The notes under the pieces were generated by a model. That model saw only the letters and a list, made by a program, of their open reading frames with translations. It searched no databases and was not told where the DNA came from. Source: Myxococcales bacterium (lineage in GTDB: Bacteria > Myxococcota_A > Polyangia > Polyangiales > Houyiibacteriaceae). Taken from it: a stretch of DNA of 64,000 nucleotides. The stretch lies in NCBI GenBank assembly GCA_029861865.1, contig JAOTYL010000007.1:124001-188000 (forward strand), in the 5' to 3' direction. Of this stretch, positions 18,476 through 24,041 are shown in pieces (position 1 is the stretch's first letter; every line of letters starts with the position of its first letter). The position numbers were made by a program, and so were the translations under genes.

Positions 18476-18529
18476 GACACTGACGCTGGCGCTGACACTG
18501 ACGCTGGCACTGCCGCTGACGCTGTCAGT
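18476..18529. repeat. Hexanucleotide repeat array, site B
   Basis: Nine 6-bp units run without interruption: GACACT, GACGCT, GGCGCT, GACACT, GACGCT, GGCACT, GCCGCT, GACGCT, GTCAGT. On the minus strand the last unit supplies the TGA stop of the NlpC/P60 gene. The unit family matches site A and site C. Confidence 0.82.
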
Positions 18530-21524
18530 GTGGTCTTTCTCTCGTAGCGAACCAGCTTCTATATTTCTCCATTCGCCTTCGCTGCTCTTCGGGTGCGTGG
18601 CGTTTGCATGTCGTGTGCTCTTCCGTCCCTTGCGGCGCGCCCCAGCGAATCTCGGCGCAGTCGTTGGGGTTGTACGCCATCTCCATGGCCGAGCTCCGGT
18701 CGACGAGGTCGGCTAGGGTCAAACTCCATGCGCTCCCATCGGACCTCGTGTATTGGAAGGTTCGCTTGCCGATCTCTTCTGCGAGGGCCTGCCGGACCTC
18801 GGCAACCACGTTGTCCCGATCAGCCTCTCGTATACCGAAGCGGTCGGGATGGGCGGCCACGGTGCTCGCGAACGAAGTGACGGCGTCGATGCTGATCAGC
18901 AGCCGCATGTCTCGAGAAGGGGTCGAGTAGTCCTCCCAAGGGCCCGACGTCAGGAACAGGGCGGCGCCCGAGGGCATGTCGATTGTCGCGTAGCCTTGCG
19001 ATCGCATGAAGTCTTCGCCGTTTTGGACCGAGCTCAGGCGCCGCTGGACCGATTCCTCGAGGGCGTCGACCAGGCTCGTTTGCATTCGAACCGGGTCGAG
19101 CGCGCGAGGATTGATCATGCCCTCCATGGCGCTGTAGAAGTCGTCCGCTGTTCCACGGTATTGCGCGTCGGACCAGGCCTTCACACGGCCGGCTCGACGA
19201 AGCTCGGCGTTCGTTGCGATCTTCAGCGCCTGAGCCTCGCTATCGAATCCGACGGGGCGCCATCCCTTGAAGCCTGCGCCCACCAGGTCCGTCTTGGGCG
19301 TGAACAAGAACGAACCGCGCCAAAAGCGACGACGACCCACCGTTCCGTCCGGTTGGGCGTCCGCGCCGATCAACACGCCGTAGTCGTCGACTGCTTGCGG
19401 CTTCCAACGTGCGACCACCAATACGTGGCCGTACGGATCGGCAAACACCGTTCCCGGGCGGATCGCCGTGCGGCTCAGGCGCAAGGGATAGAAGTCGGTC
19501 TCCTCTTCGTCCGGGCGCGTGCGTGGGCTCGACGAATGGACCGTGCCCGCCACGCGCCTCATGAAACTCCGAAAGGCGCCGACATCGGTCGCGGCTTCTT
19601 GGAGGTCGAGGTTGCTGAAGACGGCGGGGTCGCAGACCGGAGGCTGATCTCTCCGGCCGCGGCTGCATGTTCGGTAGGCGAACGGAAGCCCGACTTTCCA
19701 AGCGAAGTAGGCGCGAAGGAAATAGGGTAGGTCGGCGCAGTCCGGCTCGAGGGAAAGCCGCGCGTCCTCGCCTTGGAGCCGGTAGTCGTAAAGCAGGTTT
19801 CGCTTCGGATCGCCGATGACCTCTTGAAGCCTCGTCCAGGTCACGTCCTCGTCCTCAGGATCGCGAAATAGCTGCTCGATGAACGCCGAGTAGAGATTTT
19901 CGGTGCTCCGGCTCCACTGCCGTGTCGTTGCCCAGGCTGGGCCAGCGGGTTGGCGTCGCGGCCCTCGGGGAGCGCGGGAGGCGACCACGAACCGATGACA
20001 CGCGAGCGTCCGATCGCCTTCACCCAACACCGCGGTCCACTTTCCAGGCATGGGTTGCGCGACTTCGACGAAGCGGCTGAATGGCGGCCCGTCGAGTATG
20101 CGCTCTTCGGCGTCGACCTGCTCACCATTTGGGCCATAGAGCACGAGTGCGGCGATCCCGGGGTCTCGCTCGCTCGTCGCGATCACGCGAAGGGGCTGCG
20201 TCGCATGTGGCCGTCGCGGCGACGCAAAGATCGCATTGCTCTGCGAGTCACGGCACGCGCCCTCAGGTCGGGCCATAGGCGCGCTCGGCCGCAGCACCGC
20301 ATTGGCCGCGAGGGCGGGTCCAGGTGTTCTTCCGATCACGGTAAGGTGTGTAATGCGACTGAGGAAATCGGTGCGTGAGCTTCCCTCACCGAGGGAAAGG
20401 TCGCTGATCGCGACCCGGTCGACTCGATTGACCGTTTCGAGCTCGGTGCCTTCGCACGGTGTCAGGTATTCGGAGAAGGCGTGCATCGCCATCGGAATCC
20501 CTTCCTCCGTCGTGCCGAGGTACAACATGATGTGCCCTGGGAAACGCAGCAGCACGATACCGCGACGCGCCGCTGCCTCGAGCAGGAGTCGCTTCTCGTT
20601 GAGGTCTCGCACTTCCGAAACATCGACCGAGAATGTGCCGGCCTTGGCCTGGCGTGCGCTGTGTCGTGGCAGATCGATGCCGAAACGACCAAAGACCTCG
20701 AGCAGAAACCGAGAGCAATCGTAGCCTCCGTCTTTTCCGCCCCAGCCGTAGGGCGCGCCGAGCAGCGAAAACGCCTCGGTCAAGAGGGCCCGACGCGTGA
20801 ACGGCGGCGGCTCAGACCGAGCGAGCTCTCGTTGCAAGGATTCGGGTGAAAGCGGCCCGGACAGGTCCTTACCCGTGACCCAGCCGAGTGCGTACGGGGT
20901 GCGTGCCAGAAAAAGCCCGTTTGGCCAGCGCGACAGAAGCTGAACGACTTCGCCCGGTCGAATGGTGCTGCATCGGTTGCGATCGAAGTCCAAGTCGACT
21001 GGTATGTGGTAGAGCCCCTCCGGATACGGGCCGCACCGTAGGGGCTTGAGCGCCTCGGCGAGCCGCCATTGCTGCAGCAGCTCGAGCCCGTCTGGTTGGT
21101 CGAATGGTGAAAGAGCGTCGGCCTCGATCGCTTTGCCCTTCGCATCGACCAACGTACCGTCGCCGAGCTTCGCGCGCAGGTAGTCGAGCCGCTCGCCGAC
21201 CTGAGCCAAGAGCGCCGCTTCGTCTACGGGGGCCGCGAGGTCGGCGTGCCCAAGTGGCTCCCCGTCGATCAGCTCACCAAGAGCGATGTTATGCCTTTGC
21301 ACTTCTTCTGGGGCGAGAAGCGGCGTGTCGACCGGCTCGTACGCCTCCGCACGCGTCAGCCAGTACTCGAGCTGTTCGTGTTCTGGTGCCACGTTCGCGA
21401 GAGGGGGCGCGACCCGGCGGACTTCGGGGCAACTCGGGTCGCGGCGTTCAGTGACGGGGGAATCGTCGCGGCAGCTCGGACACGTGAGACACACTACGGC
21501 CCCGAGGGCCGCGAGTCTCGTCAT
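18525..21524 (-). CDS. NlpC/P60 lipoprotein with SH3 and a second papain-like Cys-His domain
   Basis: The ATG at 21524 overlaps the upstream stop by 4 bp (ATGA) and gives 999 residues with a lipobox (CLTCPSC). An N-terminal helical region precedes an SH3-like segment (about 184-221, ending ALGWV). The NlpC/P60 domain follows: Cys in YDCSRF (about residue 270), His in GHIMLYLG (about 331) and a third polar residue near MHAF (about 348). These domains cleave peptidoglycan stem peptides. The last ~480 residues contain a second possible active site, Cys in DCADLPYFLRAY (about 596) and His in DPYGHVLVV (about 700), resembling transglutaminase/NlpC folds. This C-terminal part is otherwise unrecognised. 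It is last in the MepA operon. Confidence 0.87.
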   Translation of the reverse strand: MTRLAALGAVVCLTCPSCRDDSPVTERRDPSCPEVRRVAPPLANVAPEHEQLEYWLTRAEAYEPVDTPLLAPEEVQRHNIALGELIDGEPLGHADLAAPVDEAALLAQVGERLDYLRAKLGDGTLVDAKGKAIEADALSPFDQPDGLELLQQWRLAEALKPLRCGPYPEGLYHIPVDLDFDRNRCSTIRPGEVVQLLSRWPNGLFLARTPYALGWVTGKDLSGPLSPESLQRELARSEPPPFTRRALLTEAFSLLGAPYGWGGKDGGYDCSRFLLEVFGRFGIDLPRHSARQAKAGTFSVDVSEVRDLNEKRLLLEAAARRGIVLLRFPGHIMLYLGTTEEGIPMAMHAFSEYLTPCEGTELETVNRVDRVAISDLSLGEGSSRTDFLSRITHLTVIGRTPGPALAANAVLRPSAPMARPEGACRDSQSNAIFASPRRPHATQPLRVIATSERDPGIAALVLYGPNGEQVDAEERILDGPPFSRFVEVAQPMPGKWTAVLGEGDRTLACHRFVVASRAPRGPRRQPAGPAWATTRQWSRSTENLYSAFIEQLFRDPEDEDVTWTRLQEVIGDPKRNLLYDYRLQGEDARLSLEPDCADLPYFLRAYFAWKVGLPFAYRTCSRGRRDQPPVCDPAVFSNLDLQEAATDVGAFRSFMRRVAGTVHSSSPRTRPDEEETDFYPLRLSRTAIRPGTVFADPYGHVLVVARWKPQAVDDYGVLIGADAQPDGTVGRRRFWRGSFLFTPKTDLVGAGFKGWRPVGFDSEAQALKIATNAELRRAGRVKAWSDAQYRGTADDFYSAMEGMINPRALDPVRMQTSLVDALEESVQRRLSSVQNGEDFMRSQGYATIDMPSGAALFLTSGPWEDYSTPSRDMRLLISIDAVTSFASTVAAHPDRFGIREADRDNVVAEVRQALAEEIGKRTFQYTRSDGSAWSLTLADLVDRSSAMEMAYNPNDCAEIRWGAPQGTEEHTTCKRHAPEEQRRRMEKYRSWFATRERPH

Positions 21525-22459
21525 GTAGGCGCCAGCATCCATCGAATGATTTGGTCGTCGACCGTACCGCTGGTCCCTATACCGAGGTCCACTTGCTGCG
21601 GAAAGCCGACGTGTCCTCCCCGGTCGGTGATAACACGTCGGAGCCTCTTCGCGCTGGCAAGCCAGGGTCGCACCGTATCGATCAGCACCATCGGGTCCCG
21701 CTCGGCCGCTACGAAAAGCGTGGGGGTCTCGATATCGCCGAGGATGTTGCATGCGCTCGTCTTCGCCCAGTAGTCCTCGGCCCCAGCAAACCCGTGACGA
21801 GGCGAAATCACCTCTTCATCCCATTGCTCAAGCGTGTCGATTCGCATGGCCTTGTCGATGGGCAGGGGTACGCCTCGCCGTGCAGCGACCTTTTGGTAGA
21901 TCTCCTTGAGCCCGCGCAGCATGTGAAGTCGATAGAATGCGCGATGGGGTCTGTCGATCGCACGCGCGCCCTTTTCGAGATCGATCGGGGAGCAAACCGC
22001 CGCCGCGGCCCGCACACGCGGATCGGGGTTGCCCGCGAGATATCGAAGCACCATGTTGCCGCCCAGCGAATACCCAAGCAGTAGAATGCGATCGTACGCC
22101 TGCAGTGGTTTGCTACGAAGCGCGGCCTCGAGATCGGCTATCAGTCCTGCGTGGTAGAAGTCCTCGCCCCGGCGGTCTGCTCCGCGGAGGTTCAATCGCA
22201 AACTGTCGAGACCTGCCCGTGCTGCAGCTTGTGCGGCCCGTACCGCGTAGTAGCTCGTCGCGCTTCCGCCGAGCCCGTGCACGATCACGACGAGGGTGTT
22301 GGACGCGCCACTCTGCGACAGCCGGCCGTTGAGGCTCAAGGTGCCGACTACCCCGTCCTCGAGCCGCGTCACCCATTCCGTCGATTGCGGCGCCCGCGGC
22401 GGGATCAGCGTGTGGCGAAGAAACGGCGCGAGGGTCCAGAAGTGACCCCGCAGGCTCAT
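21521..22459 (-). CDS. Alpha/beta hydrolase, YheT-type
   Basis: The ATG at 22459 overlaps the stop of the MepA gene (ATGA) and gives 312 residues. Motifs: HGLGGS oxyanion region, nucleophile Ser in LLGYSLGGNM, and His in DRGGHVGF. The DLEAALRS and RSPID-type segments match the YheT/EMB8 family of esterase-like hydrolases, whose substrates are mostly unknown. Because it is locked between two peptidoglycan-enzyme genes, an envelope-related ester substrate is plausible, but this is inference. The open frame extending upstream to 22804 overlaps MepA and is not used. Confidence 0.87.
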   Translation of the reverse strand: MSLRGHFWTLAPFLRHTLIPPRAPQSTEWVTRLEDGVVGTLSLNGRLSQSGASNTLVVIVHGLGGSATSYYAVRAAQAAARAGLDSLRLNLRGADRRGEDFYHAGLIADLEAALRSKPLQAYDRILLLGYSLGGNMVLRYLAGNPDPRVRAAAAVCSPIDLEKGARAIDRPHRAFYRLHMLRGLKEIYQKVAARRGVPLPIDKAMRIDTLEQWDEEVISPRHGFAGAEDYWAKTSACNILGDIETPTLFVAAERDPMVLIDTVRPWLASAKRLRRVITDRGGHVGFPQQVDLGIGTSGTVDDQIIRWMLAPT

Positions 22460-23394
22460 GAATCGTTGGGTAGCAGCGCGCTCACGGCAGGCGCCTCGGT
22501 CGGCCTGTCGTGCCAAGCATAAAAAGGCGGGCGATCCTTGCAGATCGGCCGATCGTCGTCCGAGCAGTAGACGCGCACGTGGAAGTGACTGCGGTGTGGT
22601 GCTCCGCGACGCGGCTGCGAGATCACCCGCTTGGCGCGCATGAGGAGCTCGGGGTTCGCGCGCTCCTTCAGGGCCTGTTGAAGCAGCTTGCGCTTCGTAG
22701 AGTTCGTCACGAAGATGTGCTGGATATCGGTCGTCGGATGGCTGAGCAAGGATTCCATCAGCGCCCAGTTGCGTGCGGCATCGAACTTGTAGATCGCGCC
22801 CCATTGTCGACCGATTCCCTTGCTATTGAAGGGAACGAACACGTGATTGTTCACCGGCGTCGATTTGCGATCGAGCATGTAGAAACCAAGGTCCACGTCG
22901 CGACCGCTTTGATGCGACTTGTGAGGAACGAATCGACCGCCACCAGCTCGAGAGAGGTCGCCCACGGTCAGACGCGAGCGCGGGTAGCGGAAGGCGACTT
23001 CGTGCGCGGCGTATTCGATCAATCGGACCAACTCACCGGTGCCGTACCTCGTGTTGAGGGACCCGACCTTGACCGTTAGGTCCTTATCATCGTTGATCCG
23101 CACTCCGAAGCGCAGCAGCCCGCGGTTCGGGTATCCGACGGACACGCTAGGATTGGGTTCCAAATCGGAAGGCGCAATCCGGCGCGGCATTCGGGAGATG
23201 CGTTCGAGGTCCGCATCGCTTGGCTCGGCGTGCGTCTCAGCGTGGTAGGCTTCGCGAAGAGCTGGATCACCGGTCATCGGTAGCTCCGCAAGCGCGAAGG
23301 TGCCTGATAACCATACCAGCGACATGGCAGTCAGAGCACAGATCAACGGGACGAGCCTAGACTGCTTACCCCTCTTCATTTCTCGGCTGCCCAT
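22456..23394 (-). CDS. Penicillin-insensitive murein endopeptidase, MepA-like (copy 1)
   Basis: The 312-residue protein has an N-terminal signal (ICALTAMSLVWLSGTFALA) and the MepA (M74) zinc motifs HKSHQSGRDVD and HRSHFHVR. These enzymes cut the D-Ala-mDAP cross-link between peptide stems in the periplasm. It heads a three-gene operon with 4-bp overlaps to the hydrolase and the NlpC/P60 gene. A second ATG five codons in (23379) would also be acceptable as start. A paralogue lies at 34190-35191. Confidence 0.9.
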   Translation of the reverse strand: MGSREMKRGKQSRLVPLICALTAMSLVWLSGTFALAELPMTGDPALREAYHAETHAEPSDADLERISRMPRRIAPSDLEPNPSVSVGYPNRGLLRFGVRINDDKDLTVKVGSLNTRYGTGELVRLIEYAAHEVAFRYPRSRLTVGDLSRAGGGRFVPHKSHQSGRDVDLGFYMLDRKSTPVNNHVFVPFNSKGIGRQWGAIYKFDAARNWALMESLLSHPTTDIQHIFVTNSTKRKLLQQALKERANPELLMRAKRVISQPRRGAPHRSHFHVRVYCSDDDRPICKDRPPFYAWHDRPTEAPAVSALLPNDS

Positions 23395-23492: not shown

Positions 23493-24041
23493 TCATCCGA
23501 GCGCGGGCTCACCCTCAGCGGCTTCTTGCAGCGGCAGGTCGCTCGGAGGGGGAGCCTGTGCCCCCGCCAGATAGAGTGCGAAAAGCCACCAGATCACCCC
23601 AAGACCCCAAACGAGGCCGAGAACGACCCCGCCGTCGATAATCCCTCGCCAGGGCTGGGGTAGGCTCCTCACCCACCAAATCACCACGACCAGTGCCACG
23701 ATGAAGCTCCAGCTCACGGTCATCTGGCGGCGGGTCGAGTGGAAGAGGCTCATGCAAAAGGGGAGTGCCAGGACGACCCAAAGCGGTCGCGGGTTCTGGC
23801 CGAGATACACGGCGCGAGACACCACCCGAGGCGAAAAACGGAGCTGAAAGCCTCGGTAGCCTTCGAGATAAGCGTTGGCGACCAGCCAGCCGACGTAGAG
23901 AGCTTGCTGCCCCCTGGTCATGAGGCCCTCGGTCCAGGGCTCGAGGGCCAAGGGGATCAAGCTCCAAATCGCGCGGCCGAGCAGAATCGACACCCAGGCG
24001 ATCCCCCAAGCGGCGACCAGCTTTTCCCGCGGTGAGCGCAT
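23493..24041 (-). CDS. Predicted multi-pass membrane protein, function unknown
   Basis: The 182-residue protein has about four hydrophobic helices (for example ALYVGWLVANAY, WSFIVALVVVIWWV, GVVLGLVWGLGVIWWLFALYL) and basic loops, with a Pro/Glu-rich tail. I recognise no conserved motif. It is divergent from the Wzz-like gene by 88 bp. Confidence 0.68.
   Translation of the reverse strand: MRSPREKLVAAWGIAWVSILLGRAIWSLIPLALEPWTEGLMTRGQQALYVGWLVANAYLEGYRGFQLRFSPRVVSRAVYLGQNPRPLWVVLALPFCMSLFHSTRRQMTVSWSFIVALVVVIWWVRSLPQPWRGIIDGGVVLGLVWGLGVIWWLFALYLAGAQAPPPSDLPLQEAAEGEPALG

Follow-up and report, generated by a model that had tools for sequence, protein, structure and literature searches.

A predicted chromosomal lipoprotein of a Myxococcales bacterium carrying an NlpC/P60 domain and a second, predicted cysteine-hydrolase domain

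Organisation of the locus

The window analysed here is a 64,000-nucleotide stretch of contig JAOTYL010000007.1 of a Myxococcales bacterium. An ORF of 999 amino acids is located on its minus strand at 18525-21524, and the product contains both DCADLPYFLRAY and DPYGHVLVV, the motifs of a second domain that follows an NlpC/P60 domain. The gene, the parts of its product and the adjoining genes were assigned as follows.

18525..21524, minus strand: whole gene, 999-aa lipoprotein with two cysteine-hydrolase domains (ORF and Pfam; matches in 48 of the 58 related genomes searched)
21471..21524, minus strand: signal peptide with lipobox Cys18, residues 1-18 (C18 aligned in 37/38 relatives; lipobox-like sequences in relatives)
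20820..21455, minus strand: c-clip/SH3b region, residues ~24-235 (model residues 13-376 match DvLysin 3m1u and PnpA 6sqx)
20325..20807, minus strand: NlpC/P60 domain, residues ~240-400, with Cys270-His331-His348 (PF00877, E 1.1e-8; triad 75/75)
19959..20252, minus strand: Ig-like beta-sandwich, residues ~425-522 (VIA-align Z up to 9.7 to Ig domains over C-terminal model range 3-98)
19239..19943, minus strand: second cysteine-hydrolase core, residues ~528-762 (105 distinct relatives; model pLDDT ~91)
19737..19739, minus strand: Cys596, predicted nucleophile (105/105; just before helix 576-588, model numbering)
19425..19427, minus strand: His700, predicted general base (105/105; directly before strand 678-685, model numbering)
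19353..19361, minus strand: Asp722-Ala-Gln724, predicted counterparts of Glu134 and Asn136 of the LysK CHAP domain (conservation, model and CHAP profile alignment)
18528..19238, minus strand: helical tail, residues 763-999, with invariant C956 and C973 (conserved in full-length relatives)
21521..22459, minus strand: YheT-type alpha/beta hydrolase gene (PF00561, E 2.2e-15; 4-bp overlap with the lipoprotein gene)
22456..23394, minus strand: MepA-type murein endopeptidase (M74) gene (PF03411, E 5.8e-16; 4-bp overlap with the hydrolase gene)

Both overlaps consist of ATGA, at 21521-21524 (start of the lipoprotein gene and stop of the hydrolase gene) and at 22456-22459 (hydrolase gene and mepA). 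The preliminary description had tied the lipoprotein gene to MepA and to the YheT-type hydrolase by 4-bp overlaps; both overlaps are real, but the lipoprotein gene overlaps the hydrolase gene only, and it is the hydrolase gene that overlaps mepA. A mepA neighbour was present in 9 of 80 relatives, every one within the closest cluster, and the alpha/beta-hydrolase neighbour extended somewhat beyond that range. A MepA operon as a general feature was ruled out, since the mepA link is confined to the closest relatives.

Upstream of mepA, a predicted membrane-like protein (23493-24041, minus strand), for which Pfam gave no match, was conserved in eight of the closest relatives. Directly at the 3' end of the lipoprotein gene (18476-18524), an 18-bp unit with a 6-bp substructure, GACGCT, is repeated in tandem in 2.7 copies; this array was not seen at that place in the relatives inspected. 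The host genome, the assembly of which was rated 100% complete, contained a single NlpC/P60 match, which was this protein, while no CHAP match could be detected in it.

Domain layout and the two cysteine centres

A lipid anchor at the envelope is inferred from Cys18, aligned in nearly all relatives compared, while the lipobox of this copy is atypical (LTCPSC). AlphaFold2 modelling of residues 24-999 gave a mean pLDDT of 90.8 with a pTM of 0.89, and the C-terminal half modelled separately (residues 425-999) reached 91.6 and 0.90, respectively. The preliminary description had placed a second Cys-His domain over the last ~480 residues. Such a domain is present; however, this region is not one domain but divides into the Ig-like sandwich, the core and the helical tail, whose two cysteines, C956 and C973, were found in 42/42 relatives.

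The first domain could be confirmed as the normal NlpC/P60 domain initially described. Pfam placed NLPC_P60 (PF00877) at residues 256-339 with 35.4 bits against a curated cut-off of 23, and NCBIfam matched only NlpC/P60 enzymes at the same place, with scores below their cut-offs. The Cys-His-polar triad of NlpC enzymes was present, and C270, H331 and H348 were each conserved in all 75 distinct NlpC domains of the fused proteins. Structural comparison of the N-terminal half of the model revealed similarity to the four-domain enzymes DvLysin 3m1u (Z 29.2 over 341 residues) and PnpA 6sqx (Z 26.7 over 344 residues), which share the c-clip, SH3b and NlpC arrangement as well as a Cys-His pair with a polar third residue. 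That third residue is His348 here and Asn415 in PnpA; moreover, DvLysin and PnpA end after NlpC, whereas the window protein adds the Ig-like domain, the second cysteine core and the tail. PnpA is a peptidoglycan endopeptidase (PMC7860986). Analogy with PnpA and DvLysin suggests the gamma-D-Glu-diamino-acid bond as the expected cleavage site of the first domain.

Conservation in the second domain was evaluated over 105 distinct sequences drawn from Myxococcota and Pseudomonadota, with identity down to about 30%. C596, H700, D595, D598 and R668 were invariant, position 722 was D or E and position 724 was Q or H in every sequence; in the first alignment of 49 sequences, the second Cys and His were likewise invariant wherever present. 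Because the Cys/His pattern is so strict over sequences down to this identity, it does not represent chance. The preliminary description would have failed if these two residues were not conserved in homologues, and each was found in 105 of 105. The proposed structure prediction of the C-terminal half also yielded a confident model, in which D722 and Q724 lie at the end of the next strand after His700 (694-700, model numbering). The resulting order of elements, Cys with its helix, His with its strand and a polar residue on the following strand, is the papain-like order, and the predicted secondary structure of the second domain thus fits a papain-like site.

Since C270, H331 and H348 on one side and C596 and H700 on the other are invariant in their respective sets, both centres are maintained together. 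The earlier view of two different cysteine centres in one envelope lipoprotein was therefore borne out insofar as both are intact and conserved, and both may be catalytic.

Relationship, distribution and neighbourhood of the second domain

The second domain falls outside every Pfam and NCBIfam model; Pfam returned nothing in the last 600 residues of the window protein even at E 10, and a PDB sequence search with the C-terminal half gave no match at E 10. When 33 members were searched, CHAP (PF05257) was the sole recurring sub-threshold match (3/33, best E 0.034), with 11.6-13 bits in two members against a curated cut-off of 26 and no match for the window core itself. Profile comparison with hhalign, in which the best of 33 unrelated control profiles reached E 0.12 and the NlpC-CHAP positive control E 0.0012, gave a weak match to CHAP (E 0.007, probability 5.6%, 33 columns) that covers only the His, Asp and Gln strands. 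The corresponding values were E 0.14 for NlpC, E 0.39 for transglutaminase, and E 0.76 for DUF2272 (PF10030), the last against a four-sequence profile. The CHAP alignment pairs D722 and Q724 with the E and the N, respectively, of a CHAP E-x-N motif. In LysK, Glu134 is a proposed triad member and Asn136 a proposed oxyanion residue, and mutating either lowered activity (PMC4126393).

The residue set typical of CHAP (Cys, His and acidic-x-amide) is thus present as C596, H700, D/E722 and Q/H724. As in the LysK CHAP domain, the Cys lies near a helix start, the His near a strand start and the acidic-x-amide element on the next strand (D722-A-Q724 versus Glu134-x-Asn136). In contrast to CHAP amidases and peptidases, the second domain scores below the Pfam cut-off, is about twice as long, carries large insertions and has weak profile similarity. 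These sequence comparisons are suggestive of a likeness to CHAP and not of family membership. The best reading is a papain-like family that has not been catalogued and that lies closer to CHAP than to the transglutaminases. The Cys/His order had at first been attributed to transglutaminases and NlpC-type peptidases alike; the comparison favours the CHAP/NlpC side, while the suggested alignment with transglutaminase-like families lay within the range of the controls, and Transglut_core (PF01841) gave no match in the 33 members at E 10. Membership in the transglutaminases was accordingly rejected.

Most hits of the fold searches that compared the C-terminal model with the PDB and with viral models were Ig folds; the Ig domain filled the hit lists, so that a papain-like structure was not among them. 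One weak fold-search match, to the TssM deubiquitinase (E 1.4e-3, low TM-score), was given no weight. PHROG matches were unnamed and weak, and a literature search of open-licence papers found no description of the second domain.

A scan of 84,980 species genomes revealed about 500 genomic stretches that encode relatives of this uncatalogued domain, whose cysteine active site appears to be intact. The best 80 of these 500, which were kept, came mostly from Myxococcota, with some Methylococcaceae, Chromatiaceae and records titled only 'Proteobacteria'. Within the phylum of the window, the domain occurred in 44 of 190 genomes. A phage or plasmid origin was ruled out by the absence of tblastn matches to the second domain in both a phage and a plasmid collection. 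Most Myxococcota show the order c-clip/SH3b, NlpC, Ig, core and tail. A solo form that lacks NlpC and is composed of Ig, core and tail occurs in Methylococcaceae, Chromatiaceae and some Myxococcota, and in a deep group (L041-L044) the core is accompanied by neither NlpC nor Ig. A maximum-likelihood tree, the deepest joins of which are unsure owing to long branches, required two changes of the fused/solo label and contained one solo clade of 12 (support 99/99).

Several individual loci departed from these layouts. Three MAGs of ruminant-gut Proteobacteria (L114, L119, L127) have NlpC, core and tail with no detectable Ig match. The solo forms L039, L040 and L041-L044 are divergent; the last four are without the C620/C631 pair and have position 724 occupied by H rather than Q, and the sequences of L043 and L044 end before the tail.

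Of six gammaproteobacterial solo loci, four had a DUF2272 gene (Pfam E 4e-22 to 6e-28) as the following gene in the same orientation, a pairing that represents a lead and not a statistic, since six loci are few and four came from two related bacterial families. DUF2272 is a papain-like family tied to peptidoglycan and has been grouped with NlpC/P60, CHAP and amidases (PMC10318531). It is therefore a partner of the same superfamily by published classification, adjoining the solo form, although no profile similarity to the second domain was detected with the four-sequence profile. Among 141 genomes of the phylum to which the window belongs, DUF2272 was detected in just one. With NlpC fused in one lineage and a DUF2272 gene adjoining in the other, two lineages pair the second domain with different papain-like wall-enzyme families. 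The DUF2272 gene lies immediately downstream in L112, L120, L122 and L128; in L120 it is followed by an amino-acid permease, and in L118 the same type of permease stands directly after the solo gene with no DUF2272 between.

A predicted two-headed wall hydrolase and its alternatives

The best explanation for the protein is a peptidoglycan hydrolase with two heads that is tethered to the envelope through a lipid anchor, with a probability of about 0.6; catalysis, the peptidoglycan substrate, the bond cut and the cooperation of the two sites are all predicted features of this reading. The N-terminal DvLysin/PnpA-type NlpC/P60 half would act on the stem peptide by cutting its gamma-D-Glu-diamino-acid bond. 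The Ig-like spacer would carry a further papain-like domain, folding on its own, from a family that is uncatalogued and has CHAP as its nearest neighbour. This second domain would most probably be a CHAP-like amidase or endopeptidase, with Cys596, His700, Asp722 and Gln724 as its catalytic residues. With the assistance of His700, Cys596 may attack a wall amide, which could be a bond of the stem peptide, of a cross-link or between MurNAc and L-Ala, while Asp722 would orient the histidine and Gln724 would help form the oxyanion hole. We infer that the second domain acts on peptidoglycan from the company it keeps, namely the NlpC fusion and the DUF2272 neighbours.

Alternatively, the second domain could be an active papain-like cysteine protease or amidase directed at a protein or another envelope component, and the large insertions and the tail with its two invariant cysteines, which separate it from CHAP and NlpC, are consistent with this, as are the solo forms without NlpC and the two of six gammaproteobacterial loci without a DUF2272 neighbour. 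However, the fusion to a murein endopeptidase is old and stable, the DUF2272 pairing points to the wall and CHAP is the nearest family, so that a non-peptidoglycan substrate is considered unlikely. A substrate-binding pseudo-enzyme that merely steers the NlpC domain would have precedent in inactive papain-like wall binders such as DUF1175 (PMC10318531), but the Cys, the His and both acid/amide positions are strictly conserved, also in solo forms that lack NlpC, which renders this explanation improbable. A cross-linker of the transglutaminase type, joining proteins with one another or with the wall, is suggested by eye by the G-[LI]-P following the Cys-helix and the conserved Asp after the His, both of which resemble transglutaminase cores; against the Pfam and profile results given above, it appears highly improbable.

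Returning to the two-headed hydrolase, a further-reaching version can be put forward as a tentative possibility. The second domain may define a papain-like family that is new and has a wall chemistry of its own. Different lineages would have coupled it to another papain-like murein enzyme, either by NlpC/P60 fusion or by adjacency to DUF2272, to give one machine that cuts the same network of wall peptides at two bonds.

Two-headed wall hydrolases are already known, and lysins such as LysK (CHAP plus amidase) likewise have two wall-cutting domains per protein; LysK, however, is a phage enzyme, whereas the window protein is a chromosomal lipoprotein in which both catalytic domains are predicted cysteine hydrolases. 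The pairing of NlpC with the second domain, and the second domain itself, are undescribed in the sources searched. An active second site would make the protein a naturally occurring cell-wall enzyme with two heads, each of them cysteine-based. A name for the family would then provide an annotation for many proteins listed as hypothetical in Myxococcota and in bacteria that oxidise methane or sulfur.
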